Positions 56 to 14,499 of a stretch of DNA of 14,499 bases are shown here, in pieces. Within the stretch, counting starts at the first letter, position 1. The number at the start of each line of letters is the position of its first letter. The position numbers and the translations under genes were made by a program. The notes below the pieces were generated by a model. The model saw only the letters and a list, made by a program, of their open reading frames with translations. It had not been told where the DNA came from and did no database searches. The stretch is taken from positions 1 to 14,499 of the forward strand of contig CALAQT010000408.1 of the NCBI GenBank assembly GCA_937888775.1. The letters run 5' to 3'. Origin of the DNA: an uncultured Actinomycetes bacterium (GTDB lineage Bacteria; Actinomycetota; Thermoleophilia; Solirubrobacterales; Solirubrobacteraceae).

Positions 56-211
56 GTCTGGGGGAGAGTAGTGCACCGTTCTCTGAAATCTGCTTCACGC
101 CCGAGCGGCGTCTGAGCGCCGTGCCTGACCCCAGGGGGCCGGAGCGTCGCAGCGAGCGCCTTCAGATGCTCCCCGCCGTCCCTGTCTCAGAGTGGTAGGT
201 TGACGCGCAGG

Positions 212-1651: not shown

Positions 1652-1691
1652 GATTCAGTGGGCCGGGCGGACGGCCAGCGCGGACGGTTAC

Positions 1692-1717
1692 GCAACTTTC
1701 GCCCGAATGACTCGTTA
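1692..1717 (+). promoter_or_regulatory. candidate ECF-type promoter of the sigma factor gene
   Basis: GCAAC at 1692-1696 and CGTTA at 1713-1717 are 16 nt apart. This resembles the GGAAC-N16/17-GTT layout used by many ECF sigma factors. It sits about 20 nt before the sigma gene start, in the 85-nt gap after the aldehyde dehydrogenase. ECF genes often drive themselves, so autoregulation is a reasonable inference. It is a pattern match in one place only. Confidence 0.4.
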
Positions 1718-1736
1718 GAGTGGTGTAAGGGTTCAA

Positions 1737-3317
1737 GTGGAAGCCTCCGCACTCCCAGCCCCAGTTAGCCTGGCGCGAACTCGGATTTCGATCGGCGCCT
1801 CGCTGCTGCGGCTACGTAGCGACGACCAGCTCGTATTGCTGTTCCGAGCCGGCAGCGAGGATGCCTTCCGGGTGATCCATGATCGCTATCGCCAGCGTCT
1901 GTTCGCCTACACGCGTCAGATGCTCGGCGGCTCACCGCACGATGCCGAGGACGCCGTGCAGGAGATCTTCGTGCGAGCCTACGCGGGCCTGCGCTGCAGC
2001 GACCGTCAGTTGACGCTGCGCGCCTGGCTGTATCGCGTTGCTCACAATCGCTGCGTCGACCAGCTGCGCCGCCCGCTGGTGTCGACCGCCGACAGGCTCG
2101 AGGACCTGCCGGGGCTCGCCCAGGATCCGGCCGCCAAGGCCGAGCAGCGTGAGGCGCTCAGACGACTGATCGCTGATGTCCAGCGTCTCCCTGATCAGCA
2201 GCGCTCCGCGCTGCTGATGCGCGAGCTCGGTGGGATGGCCTACAGCGATCTGGCCGAAGCGCTGGGTGTCTCGGTACCCGCGGTCAAGTCGCTGCTGGTG
2301 CGCGCGCGTGTGAGTCTGGCCCAGGCCAGCGAGGCGCGGGAGACCGCCTGCTCGCAGATCCGCGAGGAGCTGATCCTCGCCCATGACCGGGGCGTCCGAG
2401 CCAGCGGCCTGGCCCGGCGCCATCTGCGTGACTGCCCGAGCTGTCGCGAGTTCCGCCTTGAGGTGCGCGGGGTCAGCCGCCAGCTGGCGGCGTTCGTGCC
2501 CGCGCTCGGGCCGTTTGGGGTGATCGCCAATCTGCTCGGTATCGGTGGGGGCGCCGGGGCGAGCGGCAGCGCGGCGGCAGGTGGCAGTGCCGCCGCCGGC
2601 GGCGGAGTAGCGGCTGTGGGCGGTGCAGCGGCCGGTGGAGTGGTCAGCACCGGCGGCGCGCTGGCCTCGGCGGGCATATTCGCTACCGGCGCCGGACATG
2701 TGGCCACACTTCTGGTTGCCGCCGTGGTGACCGCAGGCGGCGCGGCGGAAATCCAGCACACGATCGCCACACCGGCCGTTCGTCACGCTCACCATCACCA
2801 TGTCGTGTCCGCCGGTCAGGGATCCGCTCCCGCCGTGGCATATGTGGCACCCCAGGCTCCGGTAACGACGGCCTACCAGAGCACACCGGCGTCCCAGCCA
2901 TCGGTGCCGGCCCCCTCCCCCACCCGTCACCCGGTGCAACGGGCGCAGCTGATCGCGATCACCCAGCCATCGTCGAGCACCACCGATCTCGTCTCCACTA
3001 GCTCCACTCCCGTCAACGGCGAGCCCAGCGGCGCATCGGCCTCCACGGGCACTGGCGGCACGAGTACCAGTGGCGCCTCCGCGCCGGCGACCGACTCGCA
3101 GCTACCTGCGTCAACGACCACGGGCACGTCGTCGGATCCGAGCTCGACTGCGCCCACGAGCGGTAGTTCCACCGACACGTCGACTTCGACCCCGAGCGCT
3201 GGCGCGGATACGAGCGTAACCCCCGCGACCACCACCACCGCGACCGCGTCGACGGGCACCAGTTCTGGAGCCACGTCCTCCAGCACGAGCACCGGCACGT
3301 CGGTGACCGGTAGCTAA
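1737..3317 (+). CDS. ECF sigma factor fused to anti-sigma-type zinc finger, membrane segment and Ser/Thr-rich tail
   Basis: A 526-aa sigma-70 family protein about three times the usual ECF length. Region 2 spans roughly residues 36-112 (DAEDAVQEIFVRAYAGL, then LYRVAHNRCVDQLRR) and region 4 roughly 140-198 (LPDQQRSALLMRELGG and the helix-turn-helix AEALGVSVPAVKSLLVRAR). Next comes a zinc-binding anti-sigma pattern: C205, then H229-x3-C233-x2-C236. A Gly/Ala-rich linker (265-320) leads to one hydrophobic segment (about 320-338), a His cluster (HAHHHH, about 350) and a roughly 150-residue Thr/Ser/Pro/Gly tail. The likely topology is a cytoplasmic sigma part tethered to the membrane with an outer, possibly glycosylated or wall-contacting tail. 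GTG at 1737 is the start, with AAGGG at 1727-1731, 5 nt upstream. The dehydrogenase gene follows after 12 nt, in the same frame. The signal and regulon are unknown. Confidence 0.88.
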   Translation: MEASALPAPVSLARTRISIGASLLRLRSDDQLVLLFRAGSEDAFRVIHDRYRQRLFAYTRQMLGGSPHDAEDAVQEIFVRAYAGLRCSDRQLTLRAWLYRVAHNRCVDQLRRPLVSTADRLEDLPGLAQDPAAKAEQREALRRLIADVQRLPDQQRSALLMRELGGMAYSDLAEALGVSVPAVKSLLVRARVSLAQASEARETACSQIREELILAHDRGVRASGLARRHLRDCPSCREFRLEVRGVSRQLAAFVPALGPFGVIANLLGIGGGAGASGSAAAGGSAAAGGGVAAVGGAAAGGVVSTGGALASAGIFATGAGHVATLLVAAVVTAGGAAEIQHTIATPAVRHAHHHHVVSAGQGSAPAVAYVAPQAPVTTAYQSTPASQPSVPAPSPTRHPVQRAQLIAITQPSSSTTDLVSTSSTPVNGEPSGASASTGTGGTSTSGASAPATDSQLPASTTTGTSSDPSSTAPTSGSSTDTSTSTPSAGADTSVTPATTTTATASTGTSSGATSSSTSTGTSVTGS

Positions 3318-3319
3318 GC

Positions 3320-3324
3320 AAGGA
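3320..3324 (+). promoter_or_regulatory. Shine-Dalgarno site that places the dehydrogenase start at ACG 3330
   Basis: AAGGA lies just after the sigma factor stop codon (3315-3317) and 5 nt before ACG 3330-3332. No ATG, GTG or TTG occurs in frame between the sigma stop and TTG 3447, yet clear dehydrogenase homology begins well before 3447. The site therefore decides the start. Confidence 0.6.
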
Positions 3325-3329
3325 CCAGC

Positions 3330-4448
3330 ACGACCACCGAGCCCTACCTCGAGACGCTCCAACACGAAGAGCTGCTCGTTCGGCGCGGGCGGCGGTCAGG
3401 GCTGTACACGATCATCGCCGTCCATTGCACGACGCGAGGACCGTCGTTGGGCGGTTGTCGCATGTGGTCCTACGAGGACGCGCGCGCCGCCGTGCGGGAT
3501 GCTCTTCGGCTGTCGCGGGCGATGACATACAAGGCCGCGGTCGCCGACCTACCGCTGGGCGGCGGCAAGGGAGTGATCATGCTCCCGGCGCTGGTGAAGT
3601 TCACCGCCAGCCAGCGGACCGCGGCGCTGCTGGATTTCGCCGACGCGGTTCAGACGCTCGGCGGCAGGTACATCACCGCCGAGGACGTCGGCACGTCCTC
3701 GCGGGACATGAGCGTGATCGCCCGCCAGACACCCCATGTGGCAGGCCTCGCCCGGAACCTGGGCGGATCCGGAGATCCCAGTCCGTTCACCGCGCTGGGG
3801 GTGGAGGCGGCGATCCGGGCCTGCTGCGAGCGTGCCTTCGGCTCGGATTCCCTGCGCGGCCGGACGATCTGCGTGATCGGGCTCGGACACGTCGGCTCGC
3901 GGGTAGCCAAACGCTGCGCTCGGGCCGGCGCCCGCCTCGCTGTGGCCGACGTCGACCAGCGAAAGCGCGCCCTTTCCGCGCAGCTGGACGCGCGCTGGCT
4001 CGCCCCCGGCGACGCGCTGGAGGCAGACGTCGACGTGCTCGTACCGTGCGCTCTGGGCGGGATCCTCAATGATCAGACTGTGCCGGCACTGAACTGTCGC
4101 GTCATCGCCGGCGCCGCCAACAACCAGCTGGCCGCCGAGCGGATCGCCGAGCAGCTCGCCTTACGCTCGATACTGTGGGCGCCTGATTTCGTCGCCAACT
4201 CAGGCGGGCTGATCAACATCGCCGAAGAGCTCGACGGCTATGACCCAGCTACTGCACGCCGCCGCGTCCGGAGGATCGGCGACACGGTGCGTGAGATCTT
4301 CGATCGTGCCGCTGCCGCCAGCGAGACGCCGCTGGCGGCAGCGATGGCGCTGGCCGAGCTGCGCATCGCCGAGGACGCAACCGGGACCGGCGCCGAGACG
4401 ATCGCAACCGGGATCGGGACCGACACGAAGCGCGATCCGAGGGCGTGA
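3330..4448 (+). CDS. Leu/Phe/Val/Glu-family amino acid dehydrogenase (leucine dehydrogenase-like), apparent ACG start
   Basis: A 372-aa NAD-dependent amino acid dehydrogenase that would reversibly deaminate a branched-chain or related amino acid to its 2-oxo acid and ammonia. The N-terminal substrate domain has GPSLGGCRMW, MTYKAAVADLPLGGGKGVI and AEDVGTS. The NAD domain has VIGLGHVGSRVAKR (glycine loop, about 184-189), and GAANNQL and FVANSGGLIN follow. With ACG 3330 as codon 1, the two key lysines fall at 68 and 80, the positions known for Bacillus leucine dehydrogenase. The frame from 3330 to 3447 reads like family N-terminus (LETLQHEELLVRRG, SGLYTIIAVH), so a TTG start at 3447 would delete about 39 conserved residues. 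ACG is a very rare initiator. A T-to-C change in an ancestral ATG, or a sequencing error, is as likely as true ACG initiation. The gene is probably co-transcribed with the sigma gene. Exact amino acid preference is not determinable. Confidence 0.85.
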   Translation, partial: TTTEPYLETLQHEELLVRRGRRSGLYTIIAVHCTTRGPSLGGCRMWSYEDARAAVRDALRLSRAMTYKAAVADLPLGGGKGVIMLPALVKFTASQRTAALLDFADAVQTLGGRYITAEDVGTSSRDMSVIARQTPHVAGLARNLGGSGDPSPFTALGVEAAIRACCERAFGSDSLRGRTICVIGLGHVGSRVAKRCARAGARLAVADVDQRKRALSAQLDARWLAPGDALEADVDVLVPCALGGILNDQTVPALNCRVIAGAANNQLAAERIAEQLALRSILWAPDFVANSGGLINIAEELDGYDPATARRRVRRIGDTVREIFDRAAAASETPLAAAMALAELRIAEDATGTGAETIATGIGTDTKRDPRA

Positions 4449-4461
4449 ACTGGCTAGCGAC

Positions 4462-5238
4462 CTAGGTCCAGGCCGGTGGGCGCTCCACGCCACCGGGCAG
4501 CCGCCCCTCCGCATCGAGTTTGTCCAGGTGGGCCGCGAGCGTGATCGCAGCCGCCGGGCGCAGCTCGGAGGGCACATCGTCCCAGGCAGCGTCGAGCAGC
4601 TCATCGATGCTGCGCTTACCTCGATCGAGGGCCGCGATCAATTTGCCCTCACGATCCAGGCGATGCGCCACGTACTCCTCGAGCTTGGTGTCGACATCGT
4701 GGATCAGCGGCCCGTGTCCCGGAGCGAGAATCGTCAGTCCGCGCCGTCGCAGCCTCCTCAGCGCGTCGAGATAGCCGGCGAGCGCGCCGGGATCAGGGGA
4801 GATGAACACACTCCCCTCCCCCAGCACGGCGTCGCCGGTCAGCCCGATCTTGTGGCTGACAAACGCCAGGTGGTCGATCGAGTGGCCGGGAGTCCGGATG
4901 GCCTCCAGCGGCCCGAAGCGAGCATGGTCGACGAGTCGCACGTCGACGTCGCCGCGAGCCGCCGCCAGTGGCGCGCCGGGGAAGCGCTCCCTGATCGCCG
5001 CAACCGCCTCGGAGTGGTCGACATGGTCGTGGGTCAGCGCGATGCCACCAAGCCCGCCCAGCCGGCGCAGCTCTGCGACGACGGCGGCGACGTGCTCCGC
5101 CAGCGCGGGCCCCGGATCAACCAGCCAGGCAGGGTCACGATCGACGATCCATGAGTTGGTTCCGCTCAGCGTCAGTCGGCCTGGGTTGTCAGCGCGGATG
5201 CCCACCAGCGGGTATCCCGGAGACTCGATCCGCGTCAT
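4462..5238 (-). CDS. MBL-fold metallo-hydrolase, LACTB2-like
   Basis: A 258-aa metallo-beta-lactamase fold protein with the dinuclear metal site visible: THDHVDH (about residue 88), the His of TPGHSIDH, the Asp of TGDAVLG, and the final His of APGHGP. After the core, a C-terminal helical part (VAHRLDREGKLIAAL, then ITLAAHLDKLDAEGRL) matches the small winged-helix-like extension of the LACTB2 / glyoxalase-II-like subgroup. Members are hydrolases; some act on RNA, others on thioesters, so the substrate is open. The ATG at 5238 gives MTRIESPGYP. A TTG at 5253 is also in frame but would overlap the leader of the divergent gene. It converges on the dehydrogenase with only 13 nt between stops and diverges from the YbhN-like gene with 17 nt between starts. 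Confidence 0.85.
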   Translation of the reverse strand: MTRIESPGYPLVGIRADNPGRLTLSGTNSWIVDRDPAWLVDPGPALAEHVAAVVAELRRLGGLGGIALTHDHVDHSEAVAAIRERFPGAPLAAARGDVDVRLVDHARFGPLEAIRTPGHSIDHLAFVSHKIGLTGDAVLGEGSVFISPDPGALAGYLDALRRLRRRGLTILAPGHGPLIHDVDTKLEEYVAHRLDREGKLIAALDRGKRSIDELLDAAWDDVPSELRPAAAITLAAHLDKLDAEGRLPGGVERPPAWT

Positions 5239-5255
5239 TGCTTGAATAGTCAAAC

Positions 5256-6326
5256 ATGGCGATGATCGACGACGCCCGGCCGCCGCGGGACGAGCCTCCG
5301 GAGGTTGACGCCGCTGCAGCCAGCCGCAGCCTCCGGCGCGGGCTGATCTCTCTGGTTCTGCTGGTCGTCCTGGTGACCGCGACGCTACTGACGATCCCCG
5401 GCTTGCACGGAGTCGCCGATGACGTCAGTGATATGCGCCTGGGCTGGATCGCCGTTGCCGTGGCGCTGGAGGTCCTCTCCTGCCTGGGCTACGTACTCGC
5501 GTTCCTGCAGGTCTTCGACCGGGCTCCGCTCCGGTTCGGAGCTCGAGTAGCACTCAGCGAGCTTGCCTTCGGGTCGGCGGTCTCCTTGGGGGGAGCGGGC
5601 AGCATCGCCGTCGGTGCGTGGCTGCTGGTCGAGCGCGGGGGAGAGCCGACGCTCGTGGCGCAACGTTCAGCGGTGCTGTTCCTTCTGACCAGCGCGATCA
5701 ATGTGATCACGCTTTTCCTGGCCGGTCTTGGACTGTGGATCGGCGTGCTTCCCGGGCCTCGCAACCCCCTGCTTAGCGTCGTTCCGGCCGCGGTCGCCGC
5801 AGGCGCCTTCGTTCTGTTCCTGCTCCTCCCTCGCTTCACCGACCGGCTGACGCAGGGCCGATCGCAGGGGCGCCTTCGCGCGGTGCTGATCCAGCTGGCC
5901 ACGAGCATCCGCCTCACCGAGCGGGTCCTGTTTTCGGCCGACTGGCGCATCATCGGCGCGATCGCATTTCTGTGGTGCGACATCGCGGTGCTGGCCGCCT
6001 GTTTTGCGGCCGCCGGCCACGCGCCCCCGCTGGCGGTGATTGTGATGGCCTACCAGATCGGCTACCTCTCGAACGTGATCCCGATTCCCGGCGGGATCGG
6101 GGTCCTGGACGGCAGTCTGGTGGGCATGTTCGTGCTCTACGGAGTCCCGGCGGCGATCTCCACCGCCGCGACCGTCGTCTATCACGCGATCGCACTGTGG
6201 ATCCCGGCGATGTGGGGCACCGCCACGTTCATCATCCTTCATCGCACCCGCAACGAACCGCTCAGCCTCCGCGCGCCACGCGAGGTCCGGCGACGCATCC
6301 GTCGCGTCCGTCACTCGGAGGACTGA
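5256..6326 (+). CDS. YbhN/UPF0104-type integral membrane protein (lysylphosphatidylglycerol synthase TM-like)
   Basis: A 356-aa polytopic membrane protein. Hydrophobic stretches occur near residues 30-50, 68-90, 105-130, 145-168, 175-195, 232-255 and 262-330. The C-terminal motif IPIPGGIGVLDGSLVGMF is the signature P-x-P-G-G-x-G of the flippase-like LPG_synthase_TM / UPF0104 family. The N-terminal 25 residues and the C-terminal tail are Arg-rich and likely cytoplasmic. The family includes the membrane part of MprF and stand-alone YbhN proteins; there is no catalytic synthase domain here, so a lipid transport or modification role is inference. ATG 5256 is taken; ATG 5262 is an alternative. Starts of this gene and the divergent MBL gene are only 17 nt apart, leaving no room for separate leaders. 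Confidence 0.85.
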   Translation: MAMIDDARPPRDEPPEVDAAAASRSLRRGLISLVLLVVLVTATLLTIPGLHGVADDVSDMRLGWIAVAVALEVLSCLGYVLAFLQVFDRAPLRFGARVALSELAFGSAVSLGGAGSIAVGAWLLVERGGEPTLVAQRSAVLFLLTSAINVITLFLAGLGLWIGVLPGPRNPLLSVVPAAVAAGAFVLFLLLPRFTDRLTQGRSQGRLRAVLIQLATSIRLTERVLFSADWRIIGAIAFLWCDIAVLAACFAAAGHAPPLAVIVMAYQIGYLSNVIPIPGGIGVLDGSLVGMFVLYGVPAAISTAATVVYHAIALWIPAMWGTATFIILHRTRNEPLSLRAPREVRRRIRRVRHSED

Positions 6327-6588: not shown

Positions 6589-7500
6589 TCAGGTGGACCG
6601 CGCCTCAGTCGGCTGACAGCCGCAGGAGCCGGCCGCACGATCACTGCTGCAGCACTCGGCCTTGGCGGCGCGCTCGCAGCAGGTGGCCTGGGTTTGGGTA
6701 CTGCAGCAGGCCGCCGGCTTTCGCGCTCGGATGATCGCCGCGGACGCATGCTCGTGCACGTGATGGGTCGGCTGAATCTCGATCTCCTCAAACCCCGCCG
6801 CGCTTAGCGCGTCACGGAACTCTGTCTCGGTGAGCGCGCCTGCGACGCAACCGGTCCAGGCGGCCATGTCGGCCTTGGTCGCCGTGTCCATGTCGGGATC
6901 GGCGATCACGTCGGATACCGCTAGACGCCCGCCGGGACGCAGCACTCGCGCCGCTTCGGTGATGACCTTGGGCTTGTCGCCGGAGAGGTTGATCACGCAG
7001 TTGGAGATCACCACATCGACAGATGCGTCGTTGAGTGGCATGTCCTCGAGATATCCCTTGACGAACTCGACGTTCTCCACGCCGGCCTGGGCGGCGTTGG
7101 CACGCGCGAGCTGGAGCATCTCGTCGGTCATGTCGAGCCCGATCGCCTTGCCGTTGGGGGCGACCCGGCGGGCGGAGATCAACACGTCAGCGCCGGCCCC
7201 CGAACCGAGGTCCAGCACCGTCTCGCCGTCGCGCAACTGCGCGACTGCGGTCGGCACGCCACAGCCCAGTGACGCGCTGACGGCCGCCTCAGGCACGTCC
7301 TCCCGGCTGACCTCGTCATACAGCGAGGCGCCGAAGACGCCGGCCTCATCCCTCGGGCTGCCAGCCGGCGACCCAGGGGTACAGCAGCCCGATGCGGATT
7401 CCAGCGCGCGCGCCTGGTCATAGGCACCGCTCGCGGCGGCTTTAGCGGCGTTGGCGTAGCGCTCGCGGACGGTCTCGCGGATGTCGGTCAGCTCAGCCAT
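6589..7500 (-). CDS. arsM: arsenite S-adenosylmethionine methyltransferase with Cys-rich tail
   Basis: A 303-aa class I SAM methyltransferase that adds methyl groups to As(III), giving methylated, partly volatile arsenicals. The SAM site is VLDLGSGAGADVLI (about 95-108) followed by the acidic GLDMTDEM. As(III)-binding cysteines typical of ArsM are present: the SGCC pair (39-40), C80 in LGCGVP, C168 in SNCVINL and C218 in TGCVAGAL. ISNCVINLSGDKPKVITE is a family hallmark. After residue 262 comes a Cys-rich tail with CC at 265-266, 274-275, 283-284 and CGC at 293-295, a 9-residue repeat. The ATG at 7500 lies inside the end of arsR (13-nt overlap) with AAGGAG 8 nt upstream, so translation is coupled to arsR. 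Repression by ArsR is expected. Confidence 0.95.
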   Translation of the reverse strand: MAELTDIRETVRERYANAAKAAASGAYDQARALESASGCCTPGSPAGSPRDEAGVFGASLYDEVSREDVPEAAVSASLGCGVPTAVAQLRDGETVLDLGSGAGADVLISARRVAPNGKAIGLDMTDEMLQLARANAAQAGVENVEFVKGYLEDMPLNDASVDVVISNCVINLSGDKPKVITEAARVLRPGGRLAVSDVIADPDMDTATKADMAAWTGCVAGALTETEFRDALSAAGFEEIEIQPTHHVHEHASAAIIRARKPAACCSTQTQATCCERAAKAECCSSDRAAGSCGCQPTEARST

Positions 7501-7841
7501 GCAGATAGCTCCTTAAACGCGTCGGGGATGACGTAGTAGTAGGCCCACAGGCCCTGGCGCTCTGAGCCCACGATCCCGGCTGCGCGGAGCACCTTGAGAT
7601 GGTGTGAAACGGTCGGTTGGGAAAGATCGAACAGCGGCACCAGCTCGCACACGCACACCTTTCCGGCGTGCTTTCGCAGCACATCGACGAGCTGCAGGCG
7701 CACCGGATCGCCCAGGGCCTTGGCCACCTCAGCCATGCGCCGGGCGTGATCGCGCTCCACGTCGGGATAGACCACCGGCTGACAGCACGGTTCGCCGGCC
7801 GGCCGCTTGGTCTTCGGCGAGAGCTCTAGATCGACGGCCAT
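7488..7841 (-). CDS. arsR: ArsR/SmtB-family arsenic-responsive repressor
   Basis: A 117-aa winged-helix metalloregulator. The wHTH core is VAKALGDPVRLQLVDVL, then FDLSQPTVSHHLKVLRAAGIV (recognition helix about 73-85) and the wing GSERQGLWAYYYV. Likely As(III) ligands are the CVCEL cysteines (C63, C65) and an N-terminal CC pair (C19-C20). An N-terminal CC plus one Cys in the helix is the arrangement known for actinobacterial CgArsR, while CVC-E/D-L is the classical E. coli type; this protein has both. The ATG at 7841 is preferred over an upstream in-frame start at 7877 because the latter would cover the promoter. It heads the arsR-arsM operon and diverges from arsC. Confidence 0.93.
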   Translation of the reverse strand: MAVDLELSPKTKRPAGEPCCQPVVYPDVERDHARRMAEVAKALGDPVRLQLVDVLRKHAGKVCVCELVPLFDLSQPTVSHHLKVLRAAGIVGSERQGLWAYYYVIPDAFKELSAWLS

Positions 7842-7848
7842 CAATCTA

Positions 7849-7877
7849 CAAATATCAATCGAACTGATGGATGTCAA
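7849..7877 (-). promoter_or_regulatory. arsR promoter and candidate ArsR operator
   Basis: On the minus strand a perfect TTGACA (7877-7872) is followed after 17 nt by TATTTG (7854-7849), and the arsR ATG starts 7 nt further on. Transcription would therefore begin at or next to the ATG, giving a leaderless mRNA. Between the two boxes lies an inverted repeat, ATCA (7854-7857), 7 nt, TGAT (7865-7868), and ATCAATC is repeated at 7840-7846 and 7854-7860. An AT-rich dyad overlapping the promoter is what an ArsR operator looks like. The region also serves the divergent arsC. Confidence 0.6.
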
Positions 7878-7889
7878 TGTAATACGAGT

Positions 7890-8302
7890 GTGCCCGTTGT
7901 GGCGACCGTCCTCTTTGTGTGCCTAAGAACGCCGGCCGCTCGCAAATGAGCGAAGCGCTCCTCGACCGCGCCAGCGCGGAGCGCACCGCGCGCTCTCTGC
8001 CGGCACCACACCAAGCCAACCGCGTTCATCCTGAGGTAATCGAGGCAATGGCCGGGCTCGGCTTCGACCTCTCCTGCTGCCAGCCGAAGCTACTCACGCG
8101 CGAGCTCGCCGAGCAAGCGGACGCCGTCGTCACCATGGGCTGCGGAGACCAATGCCCCTTCATCCCCCGCCGCCACTACATCGACTGGAACCTCGCTGAC
8201 CCGAGCGGTCAGCCCACCGACCAAGTTCGCGTAATCCGCGACGAGATCGACCGTCGCGTCCATGGCCTGCTCTCTGAACTCCAAGCCACGCCTGGAAGCT
8301 GA
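7890..8302 (+). pseudogene. arsC: thioredoxin-type arsenate reductase, frameshifted at the P-loop
   Basis: ArsC of the low-molecular-weight phosphatase fold reduces As(V) to As(III) with a catalytic Cys in a C-x5-R loop. GTG 7890 opens MPVVATVLFVC, ending at the expected catalytic Cys (TGC 7920-7922). The next conserved residues, KNAGRSQMSEALLDRA, continue from AAG 7925 in another frame: TGC-CTA-AGA should be TGC-CTN-AAG, so one base is missing at about 7924-7925. Downstream, one intact frame to TGA 8302 gives SCCQPKLLTRELAEQADAV, then TMGCGDQCP and HYIDWNLADPSG, all typical of ArsC including the shuttle cysteines. Restored, the protein would be about 137 aa, the normal length. A GTG at 7919 could start the second frame but would lack the catalytic Cys. 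No classical slippery heptamer is seen. It is either a recent mutation or a sequencing error. Confidence 0.85.
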
Positions 8303-8317
8303 AGCGCCCAACAACGG

Positions 8318-8346
8318 CGAAAGCCCCGCGAGCCGCGGGGCTTTCG
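8318..8346. terminator. strong bidirectional hairpin between arsC and the tRNA fragment
   Basis: A perfect 13-bp stem: CGAAAGCCCCGCG (8318-8330), loop AGC, CGCGGGGCTTTCG (8334-8346). Each arm ends in AAA/TTT, which gives a short T run at the 3' side on both strands. It lies 15 nt after the arsC stop and 5 nt past the 3' end of the tRNA fragment, so it could end transcription from both directions. It is most simply the original terminator of the tRNA gene. Confidence 0.75.
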
Positions 8347-8351
8347 ATAGA

Positions 8352-8393
8352 TCGGGGCGCCCGGATTTGAACCGGGGACCTCACCGACCCGAA
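8352..8393 (-). tRNA. 3' half of a tRNA, probably tRNA-Pro(CGG); candidate attachment site
   Basis: Read on the minus strand, 42 nt match tRNA positions 32-73 exactly: anticodon loop TTCGGGT (8393-8387), 3' anticodon strand CGGTG, variable loop AGGTC, T stem CCCGG, T loop TTCAAAT, T stem CCGGG, acceptor strand CGCCCCG and discriminator A (8352). CCA is not encoded. U33, anticodon CGG, G37 and a CGGGG-type acceptor point to proline. The 5' anticodon strand should be CACCG but reads CATAA, and no D-arm or acceptor 5' strand is found upstream. The fragment is not a functional tRNA. Homology begins at the anticodon loop, where many integrases recombine, so it is best read as the displaced end of an integration target. 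The next 152 nt (8394-8545) hold no recognisable gene or integrase. Confidence 0.75.
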
Positions 8394-8545
8394 TTATGGG
8401 CGAAATCCGGAGCACGAATCGAAGATCCCTGCAAATCGCGTTGTTAGAGTCCTCTTCACCTCCTCTCAGATCCTCGGATTGTGCGGTCGATTACCGGGGT
8501 TTAGGCAGCAAGGTCGAGTTGCTGCCCAAATGGCTGGCGCGCCGA

Positions 8546-8899
8546 TCACTGCTGCCAGTGAATGAAGCTCTCGTACGGCGGCCCGGAAGCGATCAGCCAG
8601 TCGAGCGAGATGACGAGAGGACCGATCGAGGCCGTGCCCTGAGGGAACCGATTCGGGTTGAGAATGACGATCCCGTGGTGAGGGCGATCCTGACTGCGGA
8701 ACCGGCGATCGAGCTCAAGAAAGTCGTGCCGGTTGTAGGTCACCAGCGACCGCTCGGTCGCCTGGGCGTACGCGAAAACGTCCTCGTCTGCAAGACCCCG
8801 AAGCTCGCGGCGCTCACCGATCGCTTCGACCTCGCGGTCGCGTGCCCGGAGCTGCTCGGCCACAACCGCCGAGATCATCTCGTCAAGCAGCAGCCTCAC
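8546..8899 (-). CDS. DUF5615 PIN-like toxin
   Basis: A 117-aa protein with the DUF5615 layout: it begins MRLLLDEMIS, has LRGLADEDVFAYAQ in the middle, then SLVTYNRHDFLEL. The spaced acidic residues (D6/E7, the DED around residue 58 and D79) match a PIN-like nuclease core that would bind Mg2+ and cut RNA. The GTG start at 8899 overlaps the antitoxin stop by 4 nt (GTGA), so the two are translationally coupled, antitoxin first. Family members are known mainly as putative toxins of type II systems paired with DUF433 proteins. RNA target is unknown. Confidence 0.82.
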   Translation of the reverse strand: MRLLLDEMISAVVAEQLRARDREVEAIGERRELRGLADEDVFAYAQATERSLVTYNRHDFLELDRRFRSQDRPHHGIVILNPNRFPQGTASIGPLVISLDWLIASGPPYESFIHWQQ

Positions 8900-9318
8900 C
8901 GCGTGCGGCTCTGCTCACGCCAGCGCCGCTCGGCCGCGTCCGCCTCCTCCTCGTTGATGCCGATCCGCTCGTCGATCTCAGCGGGGTACTCGCTGTAGTA
9001 GCCGACCGCGTCACGCACCTGCCGCACCGTAAGACCCGACCATTCGGCCGCCGCCTGCATCCCGTCGTCCCCCTCGAGACCGGTCGAGCGCACGGCGATG
9101 ATGACCTCCCAGACGTCCGGGCCGGCGGCAAGGCCCGCCCTCCGACCGGTTGGTCCATCACGGAACACGATCCCGGGGTGGTCGTCCATCCGCACCCCCT
9201 CGTCGATGTAACGCTCGGCAAGCCGCGATTTGTTCAGACCCGACCGAGCCCCGCGGCGCTCAAGCCGATCCACGACGCCGGCGTCCAACCGAGCGGAGAA
9301 CTGGCGCGCAGCAGTCAT
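8896..9318 (-). CDS. antitoxin with RHH N-terminus and DUF433-like C-terminus
   Basis: A 140-aa protein partnered with the DUF5615 toxin. Residues 1-45 (QFSARLDAGVVDRLERRGAR, then LNKSRLAERYIDEGVR) look like a ribbon-helix-helix DNA-binding domain. Residues about 47-118 (GIVFRDGPTGRRAGLAAGPD, VWEVIIAVR, GLTVRQVRDAVGYYSEYP) follow the DUF433 pattern of a small winged/helical domain that pairs with DUF5615. The C-terminal end is a charged helix. The start is ATG 9318; a longer frame to 9513 is open but shows only low-complexity translation and would cover the promoter. By analogy the RHH domain would repress its own promoter. The domain fusion is inferred from pattern only. Confidence 0.75.
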   Translation of the reverse strand: MTAARQFSARLDAGVVDRLERRGARSGLNKSRLAERYIDEGVRMDDHPGIVFRDGPTGRRAGLAAGPDVWEVIIAVRSTGLEGDDGMQAAAEWSGLTVRQVRDAVGYYSEYPAEIDERIGINEEEADAAERRWREQSRTR

Positions 9319-9325
9319 GTCCGAC

Positions 9326-9338
9326 AGTGTAACGCATC
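9326..9338 (-). promoter_or_regulatory. leaderless promoter / shared operator motif of the DUF5615 module
   Basis: On the minus strand GATGCGTTA (9338-9330) overlaps TACACT (9331-9326), a good -10 hexamer exactly 7 nt before the antitoxin ATG. The same GATGCGTTA occurs 10 nt before the vapB start at the other end of the island. It may be part of the promoter or an RHH operator. Confidence 0.5.
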
Positions 9339-9535
9339 GTGCGACAGAAACGAGCTGCGGAACCCGGGTCTGGCGTACTCGAAGTTCGTGAGAGCGGCTG
9401 CTCCAGCGCTCGACCGACGCGCCGTCGAGATCGTCTGCGGGAGAGGGTCTCGCGCGGTCGAGCCGCAGCCGTGACGGTCCCGTGTCGGGCGTTCGCCGGG
9501 CGATCGGGAGCATTCAGCACTCTCGTCTGAGCCCG

Positions 9536-9541
9536 TATCGT
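9536..9541 (+). promoter_or_regulatory. candidate -10 box of a leaderless promoter for the acidic protein gene
   Basis: TATCGT lies 7 nt before ATG 9549, the spacing expected when transcription starts at the start codon. A clear -35 is not seen. There is no Shine-Dalgarno before this ATG, which agrees with leaderless expression. Confidence 0.35.
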
Positions 9542-9548
9542 GGCGGAC

Positions 9549-10898
9549 ATGAGCCACCGCTCCGAGCTGCCGCCCGAGCATCTCGTCGCCGAGCTGGTCG
9601 GCTTGCTCGACGACGCGTTCGAGATTGACGACCCGGCCGACCTCGAGCTGCTCGCAGGCACGTTGCTGCTGCCGATCTCGATCGCCGAGGTCACGGAGCC
9701 TGCGCGGCGCGTAGTCATCGACGCTATCGAGGCACGCGCCGATCCGATCGCCTCCGCCGCGCTCGCCGCGCTCGCGGTGCTTGCACCCTCGCCGCTGGCT
9801 GCCTATGCGCACGGGGCCGCCGTCCGCCTTGCGGGCCGCGGGGTCACGCACCCGTCCGTCGCGCGGATCGGCACGCTGTCGGTGGACTCGGCCGCCGCGG
9901 GCGCAGACGAGGACACGGAGATGATCGTCGCCGTGCTCGCACGGCCCGGCAGCCGCGACCGGCAGGTGGTCGTGGTCGGCATCGATGTGGCGAACGATGC
10001 CCTGATCGAGTGCATGCTGACGCCACCGCTCCCGCGTCGTGAGGCCGAGCGGCTGCTGCGCAAGCCAACGAACCACCCGGACGCGCCGCCGCTGGCTCCG
10101 CTGGCGACCGAGGAGCTGGCCGCGCGCGTGATCGCCACCGCTGGTCGCGCTCGCGATCTCGGCATCGCACTCGGCTCGGACGCCGCGCCGGTCCTGCCGA
10201 TCATCGCCCGCGCTCTCACGGGCGCCGGCGACGCGGTCGCCTGGCCCGAGACGCTCGCTCCGCGGGAGGAGGACGACGACGAGCTGTCGATCTTCGACGA
10301 CGCGCTCGATCCCGACGAGCTGATCGAGCGGCTATGCGGCGAGTTCGAGGAGCACATCCGCGAGCGGTGCCCACCGGACCGCTCGGTCCGGCGCCATGCC
10401 GGTGCGGTCGGGGGCGAGATGCTGCGCTGGCGGGCCGCCACCGGCGACGGCCATCTCGGGCGCTGGGAGGTCGAGGATCTCGCGATGTTCCTGATCGAGC
10501 ACGTCTCGTCCAGCAGCGGGCTTGACGACGACGCGCGGACCGCAGCGCCGGACTGCGCTCTGGCCATGATCCGCTTTCTCGCCGACCGCGGCAGCCTCAG
10601 CGGCGACCCGCTGCCCGACCTCGAGCACGCCTGCGAGATGCTGCGCACTCACGCCGCCGCCCACCGCCCGCACGGCGACGCCACGAGCCGGCGCCGCGCC
10701 AAGCGCCAAGCGCAAGGCGCAACGCTCAGCGCGCAAGCAGAGCCGTCGTCGCTGAGAGTGTTCGTACAGTTGCACTACGCGGCGCGGGCCGCGCGGCGCC
10801 ATGAGCGCCGGGATCCGCGCCGAAGCGCCGGCATCAGCATCCTCGTGACCTCGAGCGCCGCCGACCGCATCGCGACCCCGAGGGCGTGGTCGCCGTAA
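9549..10898 (+). CDS. acidic protein of unknown function; C-terminal reading frame doubtful
   Basis: I do not recognise a family. As read, it has 449 aa. The N-terminal third is helical and Ala/Leu-rich (HLVAELVGLLDDAFEIDD, then VIDAIEARADPIASAALAAL). A beta-rich stretch IVAVLARPGSRDRQVVVVGI follows, then an acidic patch (EEDDDELSIFDDALDPDELI) and a helical domain with EVEDLAMFLIEH. The last 124 nt run antisense over the end of the SEC-C gene and translate to an unnatural-looking tail. If one base is removed from the run near 10707-10720 (AAGCGCCAAGCGCAAGG), the frame instead ends in a basic tail, KAQRSARKQSRRR, at TGA 10753-10755. That leaves 19 nt before the SEC-C stop. The true product is then probably about 401 aa. 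ATG 9549 is preferred to GTG 9540. It converges on SEC-C/DUF6398 and may belong to the same system. Confidence 0.65.
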   Translation: MSHRSELPPEHLVAELVGLLDDAFEIDDPADLELLAGTLLLPISIAEVTEPARRVVIDAIEARADPIASAALAALAVLAPSPLAAYAHGAAVRLAGRGVTHPSVARIGTLSVDSAAAGADEDTEMIVAVLARPGSRDRQVVVVGIDVANDALIECMLTPPLPRREAERLLRKPTNHPDAPPLAPLATEELAARVIATAGRARDLGIALGSDAAPVLPIIARALTGAGDAVAWPETLAPREEDDDELSIFDDALDPDELIERLCGEFEEHIRERCPPDRSVRRHAGAVGGEMLRWRAATGDGHLGRWEVEDLAMFLIEHVSSSSGLDDDARTAAPDCALAMIRFLADRGSLSGDPLPDLEHACEMLRTHAAAHRPHGDATSRRRAKRQAQGATLSAQAEPSSLRVFVQLHYAARAARRHERRDPRRSAGISILVTSSAADRIATPRAWSP

Positions 10899-11524
10899 GG
10901 GTCGAGGCCGAGCAGCGCGATGCGCTCGTCCAGCAGGTCGATCAGCTCACGTCCGGTACGCCGGTCCAGCATCGCCATCGGGCCCCACAGCGACATCGCC
11001 GGCGGCCCTGGCATCAGATGGCCGACGAACATGTCGTTGGTGTGAACATACGAGGAGACGTCGTGGCTGACCACGCGCGCTCGCGCGCAGTCGCGGGTTA
11101 CATCCTCGATCTCGATCGCGCGACTGGGCTCGGTGCTGCGCACCCGCAGCAGCGCCAGGTGCGCGGACGCGATCCGGCGAGCGACCGCCCGCTCGGGATC
11201 GGTGAGCCCGTCCAACTCGGCGTAGCGCTGCGCCGGCGTGCCGCCACCGGGAAGCTCACGGTCGTTGAGCTGCCACGACGCCAGAAGCTGCACGTCGGTG
11301 TCGCCGAAGACCAGCCGGCGCGGATCGCCGACCAGCTCGCGGAGCGCCGCGTCCATCTCGTCTGGATGGTGCGCATACGCCCATTGCTGGATCCGGTCGC
11401 CGACCGCCATGTCGCCGTGCGAGAGCGCACGCGGATCGATCTCCGTCCGCGCAGCGCCACAGCAGCGCTTGTACTTCCGTCCGCTCTCGCACGGACACGG
11501 CGCGTTGCGACCGATCTGGGTCAC
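10775..11524 (-). CDS. SEC-C zinc-motif protein
   Basis: A 249-aa protein that opens with a SEC-C motif, IGRNAPCPCESGRKYKRCCG (about residues 4-23). Its CPC-x8-CC cysteines bind zinc, as at the C-terminus of SecA. The SEC-C motif also occurs in many stand-alone proteins of unknown job. The rest (DRIQQWAYAHHPDEMDAALREL, LLASWQLNDRELPGG, SSYVHTNDMFVGHL) is not a known enzyme to me. The GTG start at 11524 overlaps the DUF6398 stop by 4 nt (GTGA), so the two are coupled; a longer frame to 11566 would only extend into DUF6398. The last 20 residues are Arg-rich. Its 3' end overlaps the plus-strand frame of the acidic gene as read. Confidence 0.85.
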   Translation of the reverse strand: MTQIGRNAPCPCESGRKYKRCCGAARTEIDPRALSHGDMAVGDRIQQWAYAHHPDEMDAALRELVGDPRRLVFGDTDVQLLASWQLNDRELPGGGTPAQRYAELDGLTDPERAVARRIASAHLALLRVRSTEPSRAIEIEDVTRDCARARVVSHDVSSYVHTNDMFVGHLMPGPPAMSLWGPMAMLDRRTGRELIDLLDERIALLGLDPYGDHALGVAMRSAALEVTRMLMPALRRGSRRSWRRAARAA

Positions 11525-12051
11525 GTGCCGGCCGCGAGGTCGGGAATCAGCCCGCGGCTCCGGCACTCCTCCTGCAGCGCGGCCGGCAGCATGCGCGCGT
11601 CGACGATCACGCCGTCAACCTGGACATGCCACGCCCACGGGTGGCGCTCGAGCAGATCGCGGCGGCAGAACTCCAGATCCAAGCGGCTCAAGCCGAGCAG
11701 GTCTCGGATCTGCTTGGCCTTGTTCGCCATCGTGCTCTTGGGCACACCGGTCAGATCGCTGAGCTCCTCGCCGCTGACGTGCAGCGGCTGAGATCGGTCG
11801 AACAGGAAGTTCACGCTCCCGACGGTGTAGATCGTCGCCGCCGCCCAGATCCGCAAATCGCCGCGCAGCAGGGGCGAGGGACGCTTGCGCGAGAGCTTGG
11901 CGACCAGTCGCGCGCACAGCCGGGCGTACTCCGCATCGAGATGCTCGGCGCAGAACCCATCCGTCAAGGCGACGATCTGCTCGACGTCGGACCGCAATGC
12001 TGGCGGAACCTTGAGACCATCGATGCCCGACCGGGCCGCGCGATCAGTCAC
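11521..12051 (-). CDS. DUF6398-like protein
   Basis: A 176-aa mostly helical protein. The stretch FCAEHLDAEYARLCARLVAK, then LSRKRPSPLLRGDLRIWAAA and VNFLFDRSQPLHVSGEELSDLTGVPKSTMANKAKQIRDLL matches what I know as DUF6398, a domain found next to or fused with SEC-C and pRiA4b ORF-3 domains. The middle segment SGEELSDLTGVPKSTMANKA resembles a helix-turn-helix, so nucleic-acid binding is possible. The GTG start at 12051 is the best candidate; no clear Shine-Dalgarno is visible. It is the first gene of a coupled pair with SEC-C and diverges from the pRiA4b ORF-3 gene across 147 nt. Confidence 0.75.
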   Translation of the reverse strand: MTDRAARSGIDGLKVPPALRSDVEQIVALTDGFCAEHLDAEYARLCARLVAKLSRKRPSPLLRGDLRIWAAATIYTVGSVNFLFDRSQPLHVSGEELSDLTGVPKSTMANKAKQIRDLLGLSRLDLEFCRRDLLERHPWAWHVQVDGVIVDARMLPAALQEECRSRGLIPDLAAGT

Positions 12052-12135
12052 GACTCGTCACCCGAGGCATCGTGACCGTCGCGCCGGACGGAACGCGAGC
12101 GGCAAGGGCTTCCCGGCGCGAACGGCATGCTCCCC

Positions 12136-12155
12136 GCCGGGGACGCTGCCCCGGC
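12136..12155. repeat. GC-rich inverted repeat in the DUF6398 / pRiA4b divergent region
   Basis: GCCGGGG (12136-12142) and CCCCGGC (12149-12155) form a perfect 7-bp dyad with a 6-nt spacer. It sits 43 nt before the pRiA4b ORF-3 start and 84 nt before the DUF6398 start, where an operator shared by both genes could lie. GC-rich dyads also arise by chance here. Confidence 0.3.
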
Positions 12156-12185
12156 GCCGGCGCGCATCCCGTCCGCCGAACCTGG

Positions 12186-12191
12186 CAGGCT
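12186..12191 (+). promoter_or_regulatory. candidate -10 box for the pRiA4b ORF-3 gene
   Basis: CAGGCT lies exactly 7 nt before ATG 12199. It differs by one base from TAGGCT, which stands 6 nt before vapB. There is no Shine-Dalgarno, so the mRNA may be leaderless. Confidence 0.3.
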
Positions 12192-12198
12192 TCGGCCC

Positions 12199-13533
12199 AT
12201 GAGCTTGGAGGTCGCGGAGCAGATGAGCTGCACGACGCGTGACGATCTCGCGGCGATCGCCGCCCGCGCGCCGACCGTCGTCCGGGTGCGTGCTTTCGTG
12301 GACTGGGTCGGCGCTGGTTGCGCGCTGACGCAAACCGGTCGGCTCCGCCGTGCGGACGCGCTCGCGCTGGTCGAGCTGTTGGACACCGGGGACGTTCTCG
12401 ATCTACGCTTCCCGATCCAGAGCAGCACCGAGCTCTACCACCTGACCCTGCTGGTCAAGTGGGCGAACGCGTGTGGCCTGGTTCGGGTTGCGCGCGGACG
12501 GATCGTCGCGGTGCGCAAGCACGCCAAGCTGCTCGAGCAGCCGGTCGAGCTCGTCGGCCACATGCTCGCCGCGATCCCACGGCTCACTCACGAGCTGGGG
12601 CATTCAGTCGTCGCCGTCGACGCGGTCCACACCGTCGAGGCGGTCTTCGGCGAGCTGATCGGACACGGCGGCAGTCTGTCGCTGGAGCACGCATGTGAGG
12701 TCGCCTGGAGCACCGCGATGTCCCGCTACGAGTTTCCCGACGCCACCGAGCTGCAGATCGACTTCCAGCGGCGACGCAGCAATGGCGACTTCCGCAGGAT
12801 CCTCGAGGCCGTCGCCGGCTTGGGCGTGCTGACGGTGGCCGACGGCCTGATCGAGCTCACGCCGCTCGGATCGCGGAGCGTCGCCGCGTGGCTGGGCCTC
12901 GGAACGCCGACGAGCGGCGTGCTGAGCGTCAAGGTCACGCTCCAGGGATCGGCCGATCCGGAGATCTGGCGGCGCCTGCGCGTGCCGGCCGACATCCGTC
13001 TGGACCGGTCCCATCAGGTGCTCGGAGCAGTACTGGGATGGCAGGACTCCCACCTCCACATGTTCGAGCACGGGTCGGACCGCTACGGATTCCCGGACTC
13101 GGACTTGAGCATCCGCGACGACCGCGAGGTAGCGCTCGGGGCGCTGCTGGTAGAGCCAGGGGATCAGCTGCGTTGCGAGTACGACTTCGGCGACAGCTGG
13201 GAGCACGAGATCGTGCTCGAAGCAGTCGAGCAAGCCGATCACGGCCCGTCCTGCACCGACGGCGCGGGCAGATGCCCGCCCGAGGACGTCGGCGGAATCC
13301 GCGGCTACGAGGATCTCCGGCGTGTGCTCGCCGCCCCTGGGGAGGACGGGCACACTGAGGCGCTCGAGTGGCTGGGCATCGAGCGTGCCTGCGACTTTGA
13401 TCCCCTCGACTTCTCCGTGGAGCGCGCGAACGCCGCTATCGCGAGCGTTCTGATCGCTGGGCTACCCAAACCGGGGGCCCGAGTCGGTGGGGTTGGGCAG
13501 GGATTGGGCAGTGACGCTGCCGCGGCCCGCTAA
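12199..13533 (+). CDS. plasmid pRiA4b ORF-3 family protein with N-terminal extension
   Basis: A 444-aa two-part protein. Residues about 242-375 carry the pRiA4b ORF-3-like domain: SVKVTLQGSADPEIWRRLRV, then LGAVLGWQDSHLHMFEHG, EPGDQLRCEYDFGDSWEHEI and CPPEDVGGIRGYEDL. This domain is named from an Agrobacterium plasmid protein; its biochemical role is not established. The N-terminal about 240 residues look helical (LVELLDTGDVLDLRFPIQSS, then LYHLTLLVKWANACGLVRV) and may hold winged-helix segments, so the protein may bind nucleic acid or another protein. ATG 12199 is preferred to an in-frame start at 12127, which would add Pro/Ala-rich residues and cover the hairpin. Divergent from DUF6398/SEC-C, it likely forms one functional unit with them. 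Confidence 0.85.
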   Translation: MSLEVAEQMSCTTRDDLAAIAARAPTVVRVRAFVDWVGAGCALTQTGRLRRADALALVELLDTGDVLDLRFPIQSSTELYHLTLLVKWANACGLVRVARGRIVAVRKHAKLLEQPVELVGHMLAAIPRLTHELGHSVVAVDAVHTVEAVFGELIGHGGSLSLEHACEVAWSTAMSRYEFPDATELQIDFQRRRSNGDFRRILEAVAGLGVLTVADGLIELTPLGSRSVAAWLGLGTPTSGVLSVKVTLQGSADPEIWRRLRVPADIRLDRSHQVLGAVLGWQDSHLHMFEHGSDRYGFPDSDLSIRDDREVALGALLVEPGDQLRCEYDFGDSWEHEIVLEAVEQADHGPSCTDGAGRCPPEDVGGIRGYEDLRRVLAAPGEDGHTEALEWLGIERACDFDPLDFSVERANAAIASVLIAGLPKPGARVGGVGQGLGSDAAAAR

Positions 13534-13680
13534 CCTCACACCGGCAGAACCGCAGAACTCACCATTTCCAGGGGTTTCCCGCCGTCTGTCCCTACGCTGC
13601 CCGGAGGTCTTCCCGAGTGGGAGCTATCGAGCAGGAGTGCGGCAGTCAGCCGCTGCCCGCGCAGATTGCGCCCCGGCTCC

Positions 13681-13697
13681 CGCAACGCAGGGTTGCG
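13681..13697 (-). terminator. weak hairpin downstream of the VapC gene
   Basis: CGCAAC (13681-13686) and GTTGCG (13692-13697) pair over a 5-nt loop, 26 nt after the vapC stop. There is no T run, so it is at best a weak terminator. The rest of the 190-nt gap 13534-13723 shows nothing recognisable. Confidence 0.25.
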
Positions 13698-13723
13698 CTC
13701 CGGACGTCGTGCCACGGGAAAGC

Positions 13724-14134
13724 TCAGGGCACCAGCGTGAACGCCTGCACGTGGCGCGGTCTGACGGCGCGGAAGTGGCGCTGATCGAGCGTTGCTATCA
13801 CCTCGAGTCCGCGCCGCTCGGCCAGCGCGATGACGGAGGCGTCGACCATCCCCAGCGGCAGGTCGAGGTACTGCTCCATCAGCTCGGCGATCCTTGCCCA
13901 GTCAGAGTCGAGCACGGGCTCGACCACGAGCTCGCCGCCGGCGAGCGAGCGGGCGAACGCAAGCTCAGCATGAGGACCGATCCTGTCGCTGAGCAGGTAA
14001 CTGACCTCGGTCAGCACGAGCGCTGGGACCAGCAGCGGCCGCTCAGCGCTCGAGAGCAGCTGCACCGACCGGGCGTGATGCTTGTCGCGGCTGGCCGCGG
14101 CCGCGTACAGCGGCCCGGCGTCGACGATCAACAC
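13724..14134 (-). CDS. PIN-domain ribonuclease toxin, VapC-like
   Basis: A 136-aa PIN-domain protein, the normal VapC length. The acidic metal-binding residues are in place: D5 in MLIVDAGPLY, E43 in LTEVSYLL, D98 in GMVDASVIALAE and D117 in IATLDQRHF. VapC toxins cut RNA, often tRNA or rRNA, when freed from their antitoxin. The start is GTG 14134, directly after the antitoxin TAG with no gap, so translation is coupled. Fold and active site look intact. The target cannot be predicted. Confidence 0.92.
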   Translation of the reverse strand: MLIVDAGPLYAAAASRDKHHARSVQLLSSAERPLLVPALVLTEVSYLLSDRIGPHAELAFARSLAGGELVVEPVLDSDWARIAELMEQYLDLPLGMVDASVIALAERRGLEVIATLDQRHFRAVRPRHVQAFTLVP

Positions 14135-14374
14135 CTACTCGCGCCCGCGGCGGCGCCGCACGCTGCCCGCGACGAGCTCATCGACGTGTTCTGAGGCATC
14201 ACGGGGCGAGCCGTCGCCGACGGCGAAGAAGCTCAAGCGGCCGTCACCGGGCGGCGGTAGCTCCCGCTCGATCGCCTCGCGGGCGACCTGCGCGATCGAC
14301 AGACCGCGCCGGCGCGCCTCGAGCCGCAACCGGGCATCGACATCGTCAGGCAGCATGATCGTCGTTCGCTTCAT
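14135..14374 (-). CDS. ribbon-helix-helix antitoxin, VapB-like
   Basis: A 79-aa antitoxin gene directly upstream of VapC. Residues 1-40 (MKRTTIMLPDDVDARLRLEA, then RRRGLSIAQVAREAIEREL) form a classic RHH (CopG/Arc-type) DNA-binding domain. The remaining 40 residues (LSFFAVGDGSPRDASEHVDELV) would wrap the toxin and end in an Arg cluster. ATG 14374 is the start. It would bind and neutralise VapC and repress its own promoter. Confidence 0.9.
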   Translation of the reverse strand: MKRTTIMLPDDVDARLRLEARRRGLSIAQVAREAIERELPPPGDGRLSFFAVGDGSPRDASEHVDELVAGSVRRRRGRE

Positions 14375-14380
14375 GCATAC

Positions 14381-14393
14381 AGCCTAACGCATC
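14381..14393 (-). promoter_or_regulatory. leaderless promoter / shared operator motif of vapBC
   Basis: On the minus strand GATGCGTTA (14393-14385) overlaps TAGGCT (14386-14381), 6 nt before the vapB ATG. The 9-mer is identical to the one in front of the DUF5615-module antitoxin and lies at nearly the same distance (10 versus 11 nt). Confidence 0.5.
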
Positions 14394-14424
14394 ACTAGCC
14401 GGAAGTTTTCGTGGTTGAGATGTT

Positions 14425-14450
14425 GAATCCCGCGTGGTGGTGCGGGATTC
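14425..14450. terminator. hairpin near the right edge, candidate terminator of a gene beyond the window
   Basis: GAATCCCGC (14425-14433), an 8-nt loop, and GCGGGATTC (14442-14450) form a perfect 9-bp stem. On the minus strand it lies 27 nt after a TAG (14480-14478) that would end a frame entering from the right edge with the residues DIKLHE (14481-14498). This looks like the tail and terminator of a minus-strand gene. Only six codons are visible, so the gene itself is not called. Confidence 0.45.
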
Positions 14451-14499
14451 GGTTGTTGCGGGCTGGTTTGGCTTTGGCTACTCGTGGAGCTTGATGTCG

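Follow-up and report, generated by a model that had tools for sequence, protein, structure and literature searches.

A 42-nt block on the minus strand at positions 8352–8393 of the window (the whole 14,499-nt stretch of DNA that was analyzed, from an uncultured member of the Solirubrobacteraceae) is identical to positions 32–73 of the tRNA-Pro(CGG) of Solirubrobacterales, a stretch that opens in the anticodon loop (TTCGGGT) and closes with the discriminator base. Sequence comparison makes it very probable that this block is the displaced native 3′-half of the gene, left as an attR-like end by a tyrosine-integrase island that runs to the right from about position 8394. This reading is drawn from three lines taken together: a native block on the left, a native 5′ flank missing on the right, and precedents in G003, L058, and L158. 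The feature is an ordinary end of a tRNA-borne genomic island at a hot spot, a known type of event, and general ideas on how islands work are left unchanged. What it adds is that tRNA-Pro(CGG) is pointed to as a repeatedly used integration site in the little-studied order Solirubrobacterales, and that the ends, described at the sequence level, can be used to find such islands in contigs. In a limited literature search, no paper on Solirubrobacter with a genomic island, an integrase, and a tRNA was found.

Islands borne by tRNA genes form when the element carries a copy of a tRNA 3′ part that a tyrosine integrase joins to the gene, and the rebuilt gene and the displaced fragment become the two ends (Islander, PMC4383910). 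Islander tabulates a 3′ fragment in 3760 of 3919 islands and an anticodon-centered site in 2083, and its criteria include a fragment identical to the 3′ part of a tRNA gene and displaced from it, a complete and similarly oriented tRNA of that kind at the opposite end, the 3′ fragment lying downstream of it, a tyrosine integrase aboard, and a length of 2–200 kb (PMC4383910). Sporadic occurrence of the interior genes is a further criterion, given in another source (PMC10936790). Compared with the islands in Islander (PMC4383910), the window is alike in its displaced 3′ fragment, its anticodon-centered site, and the non-native genes alongside, and it differs in ending inside the island, short of the complete tRNA, the integrase, and the island's full length.

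A tRNA-Pro 3′-half without its 5′-half

The exact match, its coordinates and strand, and the break at the anticodon loop had been claimed in an earlier note on this DNA, and all of them were confirmed. Because the second-best site for the fragment in the window has just 25 of 42 nt identical, the match with tRNA-Pro is, on sequence grounds, not a chance one. The block equals the 3′ part of the relatives' tRNA-Pro(CGG) and comes without the rest of the gene: ARAGORN called no tRNA in the window and gave no tRNA-Pro there when anticodon-loop introns of up to 1500 or 3000 nt were allowed, returning with introns only a mispaired "tRNA-Arg" and a "tRNA-Ala". An Rfam search of the window gave no match at E up to 1.

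The genome collection was scanned with a pattern comprising 41 of the 42 fragment nucleotides, one position being relaxed to R, and 106 loci were obtained. Among the matches listed by title (80 of the 106), 46 are named as Solirubrobacterales or their families and genera, 18 as other Actinomycetota, 13 bear Chloroflexota-type names, and 3 are others. The 5′-half stands in front, giving a complete tRNA-Pro gene, at 101 of the 106 loci, and examples of these complete copies were called tRNA-Pro(cgg) by ARAGORN. A contig end cuts the gene at three loci, and interior 3′ fragments like that of the window are found at two (L036 and L058). In the viral collection, the same pattern occurs in one contig, L107. 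The break at position 32 is shared by L036, L058, L107, and L158.

The anticodon loop is a usual position of tRNA introns, and the break at this loop might be read as that of a tRNA-Pro gene split by an intron, with its 5′-half further to the right. Such a reading is hardly credible: it is opposed by the intron-tolerant searches up to 3000 nt and the Rfam search of the window, and by the complete, unsplit state of tRNA-Pro at the 101 loci.

A 13-bp hairpin (8318–8346, minus strand), a possible terminator, begins 5 nt beyond the tRNA 3′ end; arsC, on the other side, stops shortly before it. The hairpin is stable (−25.3 kcal/mol, z = −4.2), and a similar hairpin sequence follows the complete tRNA-Pro in L020, L050, L059, and L071. 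The strong terminator that the earlier note had placed at this distance is thus borne out as a stable hairpin, while the word "strong" is a little generous because no U tail lies beyond the stem.

Native flank on the left, sporadic genes on the right

The left part of the window, positions 200–6326, encodes an aldehyde dehydrogenase (+), a sigma factor (+, 1818–2318), an ELFV dehydrogenase (+), an MBL-fold protein (−), and an LPG-synthase-like membrane protein (+), as assigned by Pfam and by gene order in relatives. L141 and L143 keep this order, and other relatives keep part of it; by genome, the block is whole in G007 and G077 and partial in others. No tRNA-Pro(CGG) lay within the 15 LPG-synthase stretches first fetched, and the linkage cases come from extending the stretches of G018 and G090, adding G076 and G093, and following G008 on another contig. 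In G076, G090, G093, and G018 (the last a complete genome), a complete tRNA-Pro(CGG) lies 10.2, 12.4, 8.6, and 28 kb, respectively, beyond the LPG gene, with its 3′ end toward the block. The fragment in the window is turned the same way and stands 2.0 kb from the LPG synthase. In G008, the LPG synthase is not at this place, and the tRNA lies 5.2 kb from the MBL gene, oriented as in the window; in G077, a contig end falls within the tRNA 3′ end, 2.0 kb from the LPG synthase. All five of G008, G076, G090, G093, and G018 have ligA 5′ to the tRNA; the S13 peptidase gene is there in G008, G076, and G090, and the patatin gene in G008. Judged by this gene order, the left block is the native chromosomal 3′ flank of tRNA-Pro.

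An element situated on the left of the fragment was also considered and was rejected because the left block is conserved native flank.

The linkage is not universal. The complete genome G017 has the LPG synthase and the tRNA about 1.7 Mb apart, and in G001 (L073 in the first comparison) the tRNA lies near the MBL gene in the opposite orientation, which is taken as an exception because five other genomes agree with the orientation of the window. The interval between the block and the tRNA is itself variable (5–28 kb in the five linked relatives) and contains no tRNA fragment in any of the five; because of this variability, the comparison with related genomes suggested by the earlier note gave no clean empty site among the relatives fetched. 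Beyond the LPG synthase, the DNA is mostly unshared among the 14 stretches compared, with a run of genes common to three genomes.

In the window, arsM (6589–7500, −), an arsR-like gene (7488–7877, −), and an arsC-like LMW phosphatase gene (7919–8302, +) sit between the LPG synthase and the fragment. By tblastn, they have no match near tRNA-Pro in those loci of relatives that were searched, except a weak ArsR match 5.6 kb away in L168, and they may have been inserted earlier into this variable interval. The lack of ars genes at this place in the relatives examined would suit a tandem array, in which the fragment is the boundary of two stacked elements and the ars genes at 6589–8302 belong to the older, left one; integrase-bearing DNA 3′ of the same kind of fragment in L058 and L107 would suit it as well. 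However, the gap between the LPG synthase and the fragment is only 2.0 kb and no integrase or second tRNA piece was found in it, and at the four loci named above, complete tRNA-Pro genes are followed by hairpins similar to that of the fragment. A tandem array is unlikely here.

The ligA, S13, patatin, and NIF3 proteins taken from L164 and L166 gave no meaningful match to the window (best E 0.08), and a second sigma-factor query of the 5′ flank matched only the sigma gene on the left (1818–2318). By these searches, the native 5′ flank (ligA, S13 peptidase, patatin, and NIF3) is absent from 8394–14499. The interior genes are sporadic among relatives: with the eight right-hand proteins of the window, tblastn gave no match of at least 35 bits at 19 loci at or beside the relatives' tRNA-Pro(CGG), and no match of at least 55 bits was obtained in L001–L106 except a pair in L068. 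This partial exception (L068 5102–6249) is a distant DUF433-like/DUF5615-like pair, 33–38% identical and in the window's order, upstream of a complete tRNA-Pro(CGG). The earlier note had named two findings that would speak against an island, a genome with no other tRNA-Pro(CGG) and synteny of the 8394–14400 genes with a full tRNA in relatives; neither turned up, the L068 pair being the nearest case. At least 6.1 kb of the island (8394 to the window end) lies within the window, and no integrase, phage, or transfer gene was recognized in these 6.1 kb.

The preferred reading, a displaced native 3′-half, can be pictured as follows. A tyrosine-integrase element whose attP carries a copy of the tRNA-Pro(CGG) 3′-half would recombine, within the anticodon loop, with the chromosomal gene. 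The copy brought by the element would rebuild the tRNA on one side, and the original 3′-half with its hairpin and native flank would be displaced to the other side, now 8352–8393. The island would extend from about 8394 past the end of the window, and its far end would consist of a complete minus-strand tRNA-Pro(CGG), probably with an integrase gene next to it, and then the native 5′ flank (NIF3/patatin/S13/ligA). The rightward course had already been proposed in the earlier note, and the native left flank, the missing 5′ flank, and the G003 precedent (see below) all support it. The far end with its rebuilt tRNA and its integrase, and the present mobility of the island, are what we infer.

Precedents at tRNA-Pro genes and the end of the element

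A 16.5-kb element in Solirubrobacteraceae YX3bin10 (G003; L180, L032, L036, and L029) displays nearly all of this layout and has the same target gene and the same break at position 32. On contig C5 of this genome, the 3′ fragment (L180 2171–2213) and the tRNA, appearing again at L180 18759–18813, are separated by 16.5 kb, and a tyrosine integrase gene ends 20 nt from the 3′ end of this tRNA, which is cut by the contig end. Another contig, C12, opens with the tRNA in complete form, and NIF3, patatin, S13, and ligA come after it. A further likeness to the window is a gene, situated just within the fragment end, that matches DUF433 weakly, whereas the end sequence beside the fragment (L036) does not align with that of the window beyond the tRNA part.

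In L071 (55%) and L039 (63% over 131 aa), a relative of the G003 integrase is encoded 3′ to tRNA-Pro; in L058 (67% over 109 aa), one adjoins the fragment. An integrase of another kind, closer to that of L107 (52%), lies beside tRNA-Pro in L019. Altogether, an integrase is present beside tRNA-Pro or its fragment at 5 of the 106 loci (L071, L039, L032, L058, and L019), where at least 1 kb on the integrase side is available at 79 of the 106; in L032, L039, and L071, it adjoins a complete or contig-cut tRNA, a position that here would fall beyond the window. One viral contig, L204, encodes a 65% relative of the G003 integrase, and no tRNA-Pro piece was found in that contig.

In G084, an interior tRNA-Pro 3′-half that is broken at position 32 and differs by one base lies on contig C265 (L158) at 3428–3469; the same genome carries a complete tRNA-Pro(CGG) on contig C278 (L160), where patatin, S13, and ligA are its neighbors in the 5′ direction. 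Other 3′ pieces on a contig carrying tRNA-Pro are present in G102 (CGG) and in G096, G097, and G047 (TGG). For example, within 4237–16801 of L155 (G096:C1), two further 3′ pieces lie downstream of a tRNA-Pro(TGG), at about 10.5 and 12.5 kb from it, and are likely to mark tandem islands at the sister tRNA-Pro gene. The IMG/VR phage contig L107 carries a 25-nt tRNA-Pro 3′ piece at 27–51 beside an integrase and a 42-nt piece at 10961–11003 at its other end. The two pieces have different break points in one tRNA, and L107 probably consists of elements stacked at it.

In the window, the putative element end beside the att core occupies 8394–8528; it is alignable with L058 and L158, and over its first 45 nt with L107. 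The 10 nt before the fragment, CGCCCATAAT, are identical in L058, giving the junction CGCCCATAAT/TCGGGT. Between 8317–8528 and L058 435–645, identity is 74% over 223 columns with the fragment and hairpin included, and the similarity ends near 8528, before the toxin gene. With the flank used without the fragment, only G002, the genome of L058, matched among 19 genomes or records (54 nt, 80%, E 7e-7). L158 matches 36 nt of the flank at 81%, 64 versus 65 nt from the fragment (E 4e-5 for that contig alone), and L107 matches 8351–8438 at 84% over 91 nt, including the fragment. Actinobacteria AC_13 (G002, L058) and G084 (L158) therefore share with the window both the break at position 32 and a flank alignable at a matching distance. 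L058 differs from the window in that an HpcH/HpaI aldolase gene takes the place of the toxin-antitoxin genes and a piece of an integrase lies on the opposite side of the fragment, and L158 differs in the single base of the fragment mentioned above.

These shared ends bear on another reading, that a deletion, a rearrangement, or an assembly chimera cut the tRNA gene without integration. The window may be a metagenome contig, which would leave room for such an artifact, but the same junction with a matching flank stands in a separate assembly (L058), the same break point recurs in L036, L107, and L158, and the native 5′ flank does not follow the fragment. We regard an accident of this sort as very improbable.

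The junction word, with up to two mismatches, occurs in 1 of 232 genomes of the order, namely G002, and the viral collection has 0 matches for the junction and 0 for a conserved arm word; no integrase can therefore be assigned to the family of the window's element. The rare word TTTGCAGGG at 8427–8435 (−) is a candidate arm-binding site for the integrase, chosen after the fact. It is also present at L107 11038, at nearly the same distance from the fragment, and at L143 36 and 141, in each case near tRNA-Pro pieces. Of 119 tRNA copies, 3 have it on their 3′ side, where 0.0014 per copy would be expected; for a word picked after looking, this count is no more than suggestive.

In another reading, improbable in our estimate, the DNA beyond 8394 would be a non-autonomous element. 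It would keep the att core and an integrase-binding arm in common with L058 and L158 (partly with L107), would carry only toxin-antitoxin and accessory genes, and would depend on a helper element residing there, whose integrase would move it and stack it at tRNA-Pro(CGG).

Cargo genes to the right of the fragment

The visible cargo opens with a gene for a protein that Pfam assigns to DUF5615 (PIN-like), a probable toxin (8546–8899, −), and that of its probable antitoxin partner, which has no Pfam match (8896–9513, −). They are followed by an ORF of 452 aa with no family match (9540–10898, +) and by genes for a SEC-C motif protein (10775–11566, −), a DUF6398 protein (11521–12051, −), a PRiA4_ORF3 domain protein (12127–13533, +), a PIN-domain protein that is a probable toxin (13724–14134, −), and an RHH protein, the probable antitoxin of the PIN protein (14135–14374, −). 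The earlier note had described everything to the right of 8394 as toxin-antitoxin and accessory genes. For most of them (DUF5615, SEC-C, DUF6398, PRiA4_ORF3, PIN, and RHH), this description stands; 8896–9513 and 9540–10898 match no Pfam family.

A DUF6398 homolog is found in 8 of 146 genomes of the family, a patchy distribution. Seven of these eight loci were fetched, the weakest (G092) being left out, and an integrase-like gene is present in three of the seven stretches. In one of the seven, L250, homologs of 8546–8899 (60%) and 8896–9513 (70% identity over 148 aa) are adjacent, the latter being the gene before DUF5615. PADLOC gave nothing strong on the cargo, with weak matches at the SEC-C end, and PHROGs likewise gave nothing strong, with one weak PIN match. 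The toxin-antitoxin and DUF6398 genes have the look of mobile cargo.

A variant of the preferred reading is an eroded or composite island, which would have lost its integrase or been overwritten and in which 8394–14499 would be a mosaic of later arrivals, with only the first 135 nt or so original. The halt of the L058 similarity near 8528, before the toxin gene, and the lack of a recognized mobility gene in the visible part would agree with this variant, as would G009, where just a 131-aa integrase match remains next to the tRNA and the 10 kb fetched yielded no second fragment. On the other hand, the resemblance of the toxin-antitoxin and DUF6398 genes to mobile cargo speaks against it, and in the precedent L180 the integrase lies at the far end, beyond the reach of a window-sized view. 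Erosion is possible, though on the whole doubtful.

Within the cargo, in the region 9540–12051, the 452-aa ORF overlaps the SEC-C gene convergently, and the SEC-C gene adjoins that of DUF6398.
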